Source: Streptomyces kronopolitis (GTDB lineage Bacteria > Actinomycetota > Actinomycetes > Streptomycetales > Streptomycetaceae). Taken from it: DNA of 64,000 bases. The notes beneath the pieces were generated by a model. That model saw only the letters and a list, made by a program, of their open reading frames with translations. It had not been told where the DNA came from and searched no databases. Position 1 is the first letter of the stretch, and every line of letters begins with the position of its first letter. This document shows, one piece after another, positions 8,416 to 56,354 of the stretch. The DNA lies in assembly GCF_014646275.1 (NCBI RefSeq), contig NZ_BMND01000004.1:87040-151039 (forward strand), given 5' to 3'. Made by a program: the position numbers and the translations under genes.

Positions 8416-12018
<3,603 letters not shown>

Positions 12019-51106: not shown

Positions 51107-52402
51107 ATGACCAACTCCGCCCGCTTCGATCGCGGCCACACCGACGACCTCATGTCCTTCCTCGCCGCCAGCCCGTCCCCCTACCACGCGGTGGCGAATG
51201 CGGCGGAGCGGCTGGAGAAGGCCGGTTTCCACCAGGTCGCCGAGGTCGACGAGTGGGACGGCACGAGCGGCGGGAAGTATGTGCTGCGCGGCGGGGCGAT
51301 CATCGCCTGGTACGTGCCCGAGGGCGCGAGCGCGTCGACGCCGTACCGAATTGTCGGGGCTCACACCGACTCTCCCAATCTGCGGGTGAAGCCGATTCCG
51401 GACACCGGCTCCCGCGGCTGGCGGCAGATCGCCGTCGAGATCTACGGCGGCACCCTGCTCAACACCTGGCTCGACCGCGATCTGGGGCTCAGCGGGCGGG
51501 TGACGCTGGCGGACGGCAGCCACCGGCTGGTGCACGTCGACCGGGCGCTGCTGCGCGTGCCGCAACTGGCCGTGCATCTGGACCGCTCGGTGAACTCCGA
51601 CGGCCTCAAGCTCGACAAGCAGCGCCACATGACGCCGATCTGGGGCCTGGGGACGGTGGCCGAGGGCGATCTGATCGCCTTCGTCGCCGAGGAGACCGGC
51701 GTCCCGGCCGGCGACATCAAGGGCTGGGACCTGATGGTGCACAGCATCGAGGCCCCCGCCTATCTGGGCCGCGACCGGGAGCTGCTGGCCGGTCCGCGGA
51801 TGGACAACCTGCTGTCCGTGCACGCCGGTACGGCCGCCCTGGCCGCCGCCGCGACCAGAGGCGGCGCGCTACCGGCCATCCCGGTGCTGGCCGCCTTCGA
51901 CCACGAGGAGAACGGCAGCCAGTCCGACACCGGTGCCGACGGCCCGCTGCTCGGCACGGTGCTGGAGCGCTCGGTCTTCGCCCGCGGCGGCTCGTACGAG
52001 GACCGGGCCCGGGCCTTCGCCGGCACCCTGTGCCTGTCCTCCGACACCGGGCACGCCGTCCACCCCAACTACAGCGAGCGGCACGAGCCGGGGCACCACC
52101 CGATGCCCAACGGAGGGCCGATCCTCAAGGTCAACGTCAACCAGCGCTACGCGACGGACGGCAGCGGACGGGCCGTCTTCGCGGCGGCCTGCGAGCGGGC
52201 CGGGGTCCCGTGGCAGAGCTTCGTCTCCAACAACTCGATGCCGTGCGGGACCACCATCGGGCCGATCACCGCGGCCCGGCACGGCATCTCGACGGTCGAC
52301 ATCGGAGTGGCGATCCTTTCCATGCACTCGGCGCGTGAGCTGTGCGGTGCCGAAGACCCGTACCTGCTGGCGAACGCCCTGACGGCCTTCCTGGAGGGCT
52401 GA
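51107..52402 (+). CDS. M18 family aminopeptidase (aspartyl type)
   Basis: This encodes 431 residues. M18 features are GAHTDSPNLRVKP (metal His/Asp), DHEENGS (catalytic/bridging Glu), SSDTGHAVHPNY and a final SMHSARE. The enzyme removes N-terminal acidic residues from peptides in the cytosol, with two metals. There is no ribosome site; TATGCT (51095-51100) ends 6 nt upstream, suggesting leaderless translation. The SARP gene starts 2 nt after its stop, with its own GGAGGG inside this gene. Confidence 0.92.
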   Translation: MTNSARFDRGHTDDLMSFLAASPSPYHAVANAAERLEKAGFHQVAEVDEWDGTSGGKYVLRGGAIIAWYVPEGASASTPYRIVGAHTDSPNLRVKPIPDTGSRGWRQIAVEIYGGTLLNTWLDRDLGLSGRVTLADGSHRLVHVDRALLRVPQLAVHLDRSVNSDGLKLDKQRHMTPIWGLGTVAEGDLIAFVAEETGVPAGDIKGWDLMVHSIEAPAYLGRDRELLAGPRMDNLLSVHAGTAALAAAATRGGALPAIPVLAAFDHEENGSQSDTGADGPLLGTVLERSVFARGGSYEDRARAFAGTLCLSSDTGHAVHPNYSERHEPGHHPMPNGGPILKVNVNQRYATDGSGRAVFAAACERAGVPWQSFVSNNSMPCGTTIGPITAARHGISTVDIGVAILSMHSARELCGAEDPYLLANALTAFLEG

Positions 52403-54441: not shown

Positions 54442-54470
54442 ACGTTAGGCGCACGTTAGTGGCACGCCAG
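54442..54470 (+). promoter_or_regulatory. Candidate SARP binding repeats
   Basis: ACGTTAG occurs at 54442-54448 and 54453-54459, and a degenerate copy ACGCCAG at 54464-54470. The copies are spaced exactly 11 bp. Known SARP sites are heptamer direct repeats with 4-bp gaps, placed upstream of a -10. They lie between the SARP gene and the DUF4232 lipoprotein gene. The -10 itself is not clear (CACTCT at 54481 is possible). Confidence 0.55.
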
Positions 54471-54570
54471 CGGCCGGCGGCACTCTGGTGCCCAGGCCGC
54501 GGGGGAGCACCCGGCCGGACACAGGGCGCACCGCGGACACGGTGCGGGCCACCGACCGGGGGAGACCGAC

Positions 54571-55377
54571 ATGGACAGCCGCACCCGATCCGGGACCGTC
54601 TCCTCCGGGACCGCCACCGGTGGCCCGGCCCGGGGGCCCACCGGCCGCAGCCGCGCGGTGCGCCGGGCCGAGGCCGGGCTGACCGCCGCCGCCGCGCTCG
54701 GCCTCACCGCCTGCGGCGGCCAGGACAACCCGCTCCAGACCAGCGCCGCCAAGCCGTTCCACCCGCGGCCGCAGGAGGCCGTCCCGGTGGCCCGGCAGGG
54801 CGGCGCCGCGGTGGCGGGCGGCCTGCAGACCGACAGCGGCCGGGAGGAGCGGACCGCTTCGGGGCAGGCCGGCGGCGCCCCGGCAGCGGGCGCGACCGTC
54901 CGCACACCCGACACCCGCGGCACCGGCCGCGGCGGCAACACCGGTGCCGGACACACCACCTGCGACGCCGCGAAGGTCCGCCTCGCGGCCACCGTGCTGA
55001 CCCGGCCGGTCAACCATCTGCTGCTGACCGCCACCAACATCTCCGGCGCCCCCTGCGACCTCCACTTCTCCCCGGACCTGCGCTTCGACGACGCCCCGTC
55101 GCCGCTGCCCGCGCTGCCGGCCAGCAAGCCGCAGGCCGTGGTCACCCTCGCCCCCGGCGCGTCCGGCTACGCGGGCGTGCTGACCTCGTCCGCCGACGGT
55201 TCCGGCCGCCACGGCCGCATGCGGACCGCACTGTCCGTCAGCCTCCCCGGCCGCGACGGCAAGGGCAGCATCGGCGGCCCGGCGGCCGTGGAGCTGCCCG
55301 GCGGCGCGGCCTACGTCGACGACAGCGCCTGGGTGACGTACTGGCGCACGGACGTGAGCGAGGCGACGGCCTGGTGA
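54571..55377 (+). CDS. DUF4232 lipoprotein
   Basis: This encodes 268 residues. A long N-terminal part with lipobox ALGLTAC (Cys48) is unusual in its 30 residues of basic/Gly leader before the hydrophobic core. The mature part has a disordered stretch (about 50-125) and a DUF4232 domain (about 130-265, TCDAAKVRLAATV, LLLTATNISGAPCDLHF). DUF4232 is a secreted actinobacterial beta-domain of unknown function, typical in pairs. The ATG follows GGGGGAG. It is next to the SARP gene and its repeats, so it may be its target. Confidence 0.85.
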   Translation: MDSRTRSGTVSSGTATGGPARGPTGRSRAVRRAEAGLTAAAALGLTACGGQDNPLQTSAAKPFHPRPQEAVPVARQGGAAVAGGLQTDSGREERTASGQAGGAPAAGATVRTPDTRGTGRGGNTGAGHTTCDAAKVRLAATVLTRPVNHLLLTATNISGAPCDLHFSPDLRFDDAPSPLPALPASKPQAVVTLAPGASGYAGVLTSSADGSGRHGRMRTALSVSLPGRDGKGSIGGPAAVELPGGAAYVDDSAWVTYWRTDVSEATAW

Positions 55378-55661: not shown

Positions 55662-56354
55662 ATGACCGCACGCCGTTCCCGCCCTCGCTCCGCCGCGTAT
55701 GCCGCGCTGGCGCTCGGACTGGCCGGCTCGCTCGCGCTGACCGGCTGCAACAGCCACTCGTCGAAGCGGTCGAAGACGTCGAAGAAGTCCTCCTCGTCGT
55801 CCTCGTCCTGGTCGTCCGCCAAGAGCAAGTCGTCGTCCAAGAGCAAGAAGCGCAGGATCATCGGCGGTGGCGCGGCCGGAGTGGGCGCGGGGACGGCGGC
55901 CTCGCACCGGGTGCCCGACTGCTACCCGAGCACCTACAAGGTGACGTTCTCCCAGCAGACCGGCCCCGGCAGCCATGTCACGGTGCAGTTCAAGAACACC
56001 ACCGCCCGCGGCTGCAAGCTGTACAACGCCCCCCTGCTGCGCTTCGACCACGCCAAGTCCGCGCTGCCGCTGCTGCAGGGCACGCCCGGTCACCTCAGCG
56101 GCACCCGCCTGACGGTGCCCGCTCACGGCTACGCCTACGCGGTCATCCCCACCGACACCGCGGCCGCCAAGGGCACCGCCCGGAAGTCGGTGACCATCGA
56201 CTTCATGGGTGTCTCGGCAAGCTCCGTCACCCACGGCCCGGTGACCGTCGACTTCGCCGAGAAGCGGCTGCACCTCTCCGTCGGCAGGACCAAGGTCACC
56301 AACTGGACGTCGAGCGTCCACGGCGCCGAGCTGGCGGCGGGCGTCGGGAAGTAG
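55662..56354 (+). CDS. DUF4232 lipoprotein with Ser/Lys-rich linker
   Basis: This encodes 230 residues. The lipobox LTGC places Cys29. A remarkable Ser/Lys-rich stretch follows (about 31-65). After a short Gly-rich hinge comes a DUF4232-like domain (about 85-228) with CYPSTYKVTFSQQTGPGSH and a second Cys in RGCKLYNAP, typical of this domain's conserved disulfide. The Ser/Lys segment may bind to anionic cell-wall polymers. The ATG follows a GGGGGGA site. It is a probable paralogue of the preceding DUF4232 gene. Confidence 0.84.
   Translation: MTARRSRPRSAAYAALALGLAGSLALTGCNSHSSKRSKTSKKSSSSSSSWSSAKSKSSSKSKKRRIIGGGAAGVGAGTAASHRVPDCYPSTYKVTFSQQTGPGSHVTVQFKNTTARGCKLYNAPLLRFDHAKSALPLLQGTPGHLSGTRLTVPAHGYAYAVIPTDTAAAKGTARKSVTIDFMGVSASSVTHGPVTVDFAEKRLHLSVGRTKVTNWTSSVHGAELAAGVGK

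Follow-up and report, generated by a model that had tools for sequence, protein, structure and literature searches.

Results

The SARP gene, its neighbours and the repeats between them

The window analysed here is the whole 64,000-nucleotide stretch of Streptomyces kronopolitis contig NZ_BMND01000004.1 (positions 87,040 to 151,039). It holds a SARP-family regulator gene that follows an M18 aminopeptidase gene and precedes two DUF4232 genes (Table 1). The aminopeptidase and SARP genes are probably co-transcribed because the gap between them is just 1 bp. Three heptamers, ACGTTAG twice and then ACGCCAG, start exactly 11 bp apart; they lie 28 bp past the 3′ end of the SARP gene and 100 bp 5′ of the first DUF4232 gene. 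Both the exact spacing and the adjoining SARP gene had been claimed in an earlier sequence-only reading, and they are borne out by direct reading of the letters and by the Pfam domains of the gene product.

Table 1. Features of the SARP-DUF4232 region, in coordinates of the window
Feature	Position	Strand	Basis or remark
M18 aminopeptidase gene	51107..52402	+	PF02127, E 6.2e-121; immediately 5′ of the SARP gene
SARP-family regulator, 669 aa	52404..54413	+	TTG start one base past the M18 aminopeptidase stop
Repeat 1, ACGTTAG	54442..54448	+	direct read; orthologue stack
Repeat 2, ACGTTAG	54453..54459	+	direct read; orthologue stack
Repeat 3, ACGCCAG	54464..54470	+	in the PapR2 frame (GTCAGSS), GCCAGCG at 54466-54472
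Predicted -10 element, CACTCT	54481..54486	+	10 bp past repeat 3; NANNNT at the same distance elsewhere
Predicted target, DUF4232 lipoprotein, 268 aa, lipobox LTAC	54571..55377	+	PF14016, E 1.2e-18; automatic lipobox test
Second DUF4232 lipoprotein-like gene, repeats absent	55662..56354	+	PF14016, E 2.7e-9; directly follows the first

The SARP matches PF03704 (BTAD, 3.8e-38), PF00486 (Trans_reg_C, 1.1e-8) and PF00931 (NB-ARC, 7.9e-8). An OmpR-type DNA-binding domain followed by BTAD is the architecture of the class, and both PF00486 and PF03704 score above their cut-offs. Target sites of the class consist of heptameric direct repeats set 11 bp apart, some 8 bp ahead of the -10 element, and that distance is 8 bp here in the GTCAGSS frame. 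The protein reaches 351 bits on the AfsR equivalog model NF053617, whose cut-off is 1430, and it shows no TPR match at E 0.001. No FHA match, the mark of EmbR, was found at E 0.001 either. By its domains and site geometry, the protein is thus a SARP, yet not AfsR. Its recognition helix reads RTVVQGHVSRLRATL.

The repeats were searched for with a strict pattern, CGTTAGN5CGTTAGN5CGNCAG, which has 17 fixed bases, and with a looser one, RCGTTAGN4RCGTTAGN5CGNCA. Short motifs are common in large genomes, so the heptamers could in principle have arisen by chance. For the base composition of the window and both strands of the 7.83 Mb genome, however, the strict pattern is expected 0.0005 times exactly and about 0.03 times with one mismatch, and at one mismatch or fewer we found nine sites in the genome against none for the reversed control. 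Chance is refuted by the conservation of the repeats beside orthologues described below, and we give it next to no credence. The rest of the window has no further site at up to three mismatches and one at four mismatches (at 9492). Autoregulation of the aminopeptidase-SARP unit was considered and rejected because a second window site is lacking at up to three mismatches, and the same scan showed no site belonging to the second DUF4232 gene.

Conservation at SARP-orthologue loci

The SARP was found at 46 loci of named genomes, 45 from Streptomyces and one from Mangrovactinospora. Four were left out, three with no stop in the stretch (L037, L059, L067) and one with no N-terminal SARP match (L078), which leaves 42 usable loci. 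A locus counted as having the repeats if they matched at up to two mismatches no more than 1.5 kb from the SARP stop, and as having a DUF4232 neighbour if that gene lay no more than 1.7 kb away. Both were present at 28 of the 42 loci and neither at 12; one locus had the repeats alone and one the DUF4232 gene alone (Fisher p 1.5e-8, a statistic that ignores shared descent). Conservation of the repeats next to orthologues, the check that the sequence-only reading had asked for, is therefore passed with two discordant loci. At the first of these (L072), the repeats precede another lipobox protein, as judged by reading, with no DUF4232 match; at the second (L058), the DUF4232 gene has only a shifted repeat with four mismatches. 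The reversed pattern never came closer than four mismatches in the orthologue stretches. When the window was stacked with 29 orthologous loci, the mean information was 1.85 bits in the repeat columns, against 0.34 upstream and 0.47 downstream, although the first value is inflated because loci were admitted by a match at up to two mismatches.

In the rimosus group (L047, L048, L060), other DNA of about 1.1-1.5 kb lies between the SARP and DUF4232 genes, and the repeats stand beside the DUF4232 gene. Since the repeats stay with the moved gene, they are part of the lipoprotein promoter, not of the 3′ end of the SARP gene. The SARP must also have other duties at some loci because 12 of the 42 keep it without the neighbour or the motif. 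The Mangrovactinospora locus (L054) shows a minus-strand match with one mismatch to the looser pattern and no lipobox ORF after it; this may be chance or another promoter.

A predicted regulon in the same genome

At up to three mismatches, the looser pattern has 21 matches in the genome against 15 for the reversed control. Together with the nine against none for the strict pattern at one mismatch or fewer, this places the excess in the good matches. All 11 sites at up to two mismatches precede genes for exported proteins, the export signal being judged by reading, and an automatic lipobox test accepts 8 of them, compared with 30 of 4000 random positions. Three fail the test: L083 encodes a 101-aa product (1691-1993) with a signal-like start, an LAVTG motif and a hydrophobic tail, by reading a possible sortase substrate; L084, whose own lipobox is poor, is paralogous to the lipoprotein L089; and L085 carries DUF4232 and has a signal-like N-terminus. 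For the lipobox and -10 tests, L094, L096 and L099 were taken out of the 21 matches as they overlap other listed sites. Among the seven sites with three mismatches that were tested, L090 and L095 pass the lipobox test and have a -10 element, and the other five do neither.

The predicted targets thus number 13 (the 11 and two of the three-mismatch sites). Seven have DUF4232, and the 13 together are spread over 12 contigs of the 141-contig assembly. The targets are not independent, since several are paralogues (L084/L089, L082/L095, L080/L088), and there are more distant DUF4232 matches too. These sequence data suggest that the same SARP probably runs a dispersed set of exported proteins, most of them with a lipobox. 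The earlier proposal that the DUF4232 lipoprotein is a target of the SARP is supported by the linkage in orthologues and by a -10 element at fixed distance, but it was too small, as 12 further targets are predicted.

Promoter geometry and the afs box

Of the 29 orthologous loci that have the motif, 28 show a NANNNT sequence at the fixed distance past the repeats, and in the remaining one (L072) it lies 11 bp further on. In the genome of the window, it stands 10 bp past the last of three or four repeats in all 13 predicted targets, compared with 644 of 20,000 random positions. The repeats might instead repress, or belong to an RNA structure or terminator, as their position 28 bp past a stop codon could suggest. 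The poor -10 at a fixed distance in 13 of 13 targets argues against this, and so does a spacing within one bp of that of the afs box, where AfsR acts as an activator as described in PMC10936776; we therefore hold repression or an RNA role to be very improbable.

The true AfsR of this genome (G000:C37) scores 1640 bits on the AfsR model, and a small ORF next to it is afsS-like, a name given by reading. The afs box behind this AfsR reads CGTTTATCGAT CGTTCATCGCC, with CGTTTA and CGTTCA where the window repeats have CGTTAG. Its -10 element, CATTCT, begins 11 bp past the last CGTTCA, compared with 10 bp at the window site; counted from the C of the last repeat, the distances are 17 bp and 16 bp. 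The afs box and the window promoter are therefore alike, not identical, because the distance to the -10 differs by one bp. The -10 elements themselves are CACTGT at afsS (PMC10936776), CATTCT at the afs box of this genome and CACTCT in the window. According to PMC7040171, the sites of AfsR, Aur1PR4 and FdmR1 also lie 8 bp before the -10, a comparison affected by the fact that heptamer frames differ between papers. Judged by its letters, the window promoter follows the same plan as the afsS promoter with a different repeat.

Co-occurrence of sites and SARP in 150 Streptomyces genomes

We drew 150 Streptomyces genomes and called the SARP in them from its N-terminal 254 residues at E 1e-50, with 17 candidates scored per genome. 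It was matched in 42 genomes, one of which (G054) has a match at just 48% identity, and strict sites occur in 25. Fifteen of the 25 have this SARP and 10 have no match to it; as a point against the proposed link, only 15 of the 42 SARP genomes have a strict site. Over all sites, the co-occurrence gives a Fisher p of 3e-4, which ignores descent. The 10 SARP-less genomes have one site each, of nearly one sequence, and a shared tag shows that an SseB-family gene follows in 9 of them (PF07179 was tested on L103). None of these 10 sites passes the lipobox test, and 9 have no -10 at the SARP spacing. Their repeats, which are CGTTAGACGGACGTTAGATGTGTGTCAG-like, lie near 1501-1528 at L102, L103, L104, L106, L111, L113, L115, L119, L121 and L122, and we regard the SseB-gene repeats as a separate, unrelated element. 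When it is excluded, strict sites are found in 15 of 42 SARP genomes and in 0 of 108 others (Fisher p 6e-10, again ignoring descent, by which the co-occurrence is confounded). A strict site before a lipoprotein or secreted-protein gene was seen in SARP genomes only, and in none of the 108 genomes without a SARP match.

Of the 55 strict sites listed, 30 were read, two of which (L105 and L127) overlap on one promoter. Twenty of the loci read are outside the SseB element (19 promoters, two from the genome of the window), and 16 of them pass the lipobox test. Three of the failures (L108, L110, L125) have an export signal at the start by reading, and the fourth (L117) has no ORF of at least 80 aa in that stretch. 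In 17 of the 20, the -10 is found at 10 bp or at one or two repeat lengths more.

Long SARPs

A longer form of the SARP, 882-1008 aa in length and with an N-terminal identity of 56-67%, occurs at 28 loci of the draw. A lipobox ORF lies within 480 bp of the SARP stop at 15 of these 28 loci. The repeat-plus-(-10) pattern was found at 8 of the 15 and at 1 of the 13 without such a neighbour. Over all 39 usable loci, short forms included (L197 was left out of 40), the pattern is present at 12 of 23 with a lipobox neighbour and at 1 of 16 without, and it is absent from all 39 both on the opposite strand and in the reversed sequence. Several long-SARP loci that miss the pattern show GTCAG, GGCAG or GATAG versions by eye, and the PapR2 consensus GTCAGSS given in PMC7040171 resembles the repeats at some long-SARP loci (GTCAGCG). 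The SARP is kept with no lipobox ORF or DUF4232 match behind it at L170-L172. TPR was tested on two long orthologues: L163 scored above the cut-off and L162 only below it.

At L160, L161, L162, L167, L182 and L183, a CGTTAG repeat includes the TAG stop of the SARP gene, so coding end and operator overlap in several long-SARP genomes. In one genome, G137 (L163, L196), a short SARP coexists with a long one. Both genes precede a DUF4232 gene of their own; the repeats are CGTTAG at the short SARP and of the GTCAG type at the long one. This pair offers a natural test of specificity.

Which regulator reads the repeats

The recognition helix is QGHVSRLR at 79 of 85 loci; its first R is replaced by K or Q at five, and V by I at one. 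In the alignment with AfsR, this R falls on R92, the residue that contacts the T of CGTT, while T88 of AfsR contacts base 5 of the repeat (PMC10936776). A simple reading of the R92-type contact is disfavoured because CGTTAG sites persist at L072, with K, and at L176, with Q.

The binder might instead be AfsR, or PhoP, with which AfsR has sites in common, and the neighbouring SARP would then be incidental. A full AfsR is encoded in this genome, and its repeats, CGTT(T/C)ATCGNN, overlapped by PhoP, have the same CGTT core and 11-bp period (PMC10972967). Several lines argue against this reading. The box of AfsR in this genome has CGTTTA and CGTTCA instead of CGTTAG, and its -10 is one bp further away. 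AfsR is described as highly conserved in most Streptomyces (PMC10972967), yet among the 108 genomes without a SARP match we saw no strict site ahead of a lipoprotein gene. In addition, T88 of AfsR aligns with G in the window SARP. We consider it distinctly unlikely that AfsR or PhoP is the binder. Alternatively, another OmpR-type regulator of the same clade could read the repeats, as co-occurrence across genomes cannot split two regulators with a shared history and this genome has six other AfsR-like matches. One protein only matches the N-terminal 254 residues of the SARP at E 1e-50 or better (17 scored of 51 candidates), the helices of L200, L201, L202 and L204 are unlike that of the window SARP, and the neighbour linkage at 28 of 42 loci points to the adjacent SARP gene; such a second regulator therefore seems unlikely. 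MtrA was also considered as a binder and dropped: in passages of PMC9045223, both CGTTAG occurrences fall in the primer list under EMSAs.

The DUF4232 lipoproteins

The first DUF4232 protein scores 67.9 bits on PF14016, for which the cut-off is 27, and has a lipobox, as expected of a secreted DUF4232 protein. Its DUF4232 domain is predicted to be all-beta (pLDDT 93). A sequence search for solved relatives gave none at E 1, and the model has no Foldseek match at E 0.001; the best VIA-align match is archaellum FlaG (Z 6.2, rmsd 3.3, 92 residues), which may reflect a mere common beta sandwich. The attempt to read a function from the fold thus gave a confident model, but no informative solved match. 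DUF4232 relatives occur in 118 of 150 Streptomyces genomes, so DUF4232 presence alone does not bring the site. Among the open-licence papers searched, none names DUF4232.

Discussion

Our analysis suggests, with good confidence, that the repeats serve as operator in a promoter activated by a SARP, and that the neighbouring SARP activates the DUF4232 lipoprotein gene as one of a set of about 13 genes for exported proteins. From the sequence, we infer binding, activation and the transcription start, and also that the repeats are bound by this SARP alone. The SARP would bind the three 11-bp-spaced repeats side by side and substitute for a -35 element, bringing RNA polymerase to the poor -10 CACTCT. 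The DUF4232 lipoprotein gene would thereby be switched on, much as AfsR switches on afsS. In the AfsR structure, a SARP dimer sits on the repeats and sigma region 4 rests atop the SARP instead of in the -35 groove (PMC10936776). The dispersed genes of about 13 exported proteins, each with such repeats equally far ahead of a NANNNT, would all be activated by this regulator. The NB-ARC domain may sense the signal by binding a nucleotide; the analogy is to AfsR, in which ATP binding relieves inhibition (PMC10936776).

The closest parallel is the AfsR/afsS pair of Streptomyces coelicolor, in which the SARP gene is likewise followed by its target and 11-bp direct repeats with a CGTT core stand near a poor -10. 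The two systems differ in the repeats (CGTTAG instead of CGTTCA) and in a -10 that is one bp nearer in the window. Unlike AfsR, the window SARP has no TPR match and falls below the cut-off of the AfsR model, and the gene next to it encodes a DUF4232 lipoprotein and not afsS. Instead of a small sigma-like target, the lipoprotein gene and 12 more genes for exported proteins are predicted. The best-scoring solved match to the N-terminal 258 residues is EmbR of Mycobacterium tuberculosis (112 bits, compared with 94 for AfsR), which differs from the window SARP by its C-terminal FHA domain. EmbR is a SARP outside antibiotic clusters that affects cell length and wall structure (PMC9239209), a study in which its link to embCAB was not confirmed in vivo. 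PapR2 is described as an activator of antibiotic clusters (PMC7040171), whereas the 13 predicted sites of the window SARP precede genes for exported proteins. In the sequence-only reading, the pairing had been called an unusual non-biosynthetic use of a SARP. This is a fair description for Streptomyces, but SARPs outside antibiotic clusters do exist, as EmbR and the action of AfsR on afsS illustrate.

SARPs are known mainly as antibiotic activators. For Streptomyces, we think it probable that AfsR is not the only SARP with a dispersed regulon and that this one is a second, whose duty is surface lipoproteins, about half of them DUF4232 proteins, and not antibiotics. The pair of regulator and target would have been kept in many species, and the clade with the sharpest CGTTAG sites would have a shortened regulator, its TPR lost or never gained. 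A dispersed lipoprotein regulon under a Streptomyces SARP looks new, as our searches of open-licence papers showed no report of this SARP-lipoprotein pair or regulon. Two paralogous regulators with closely similar sites in one genome allow a test of how SARPs discriminate between sites. If the proposed regulon is true, it would give a regulatory handle on the DUF4232 proteins, and a conserved set of lipoproteins under SARP control would run against the rule of thumb on what SARPs do.
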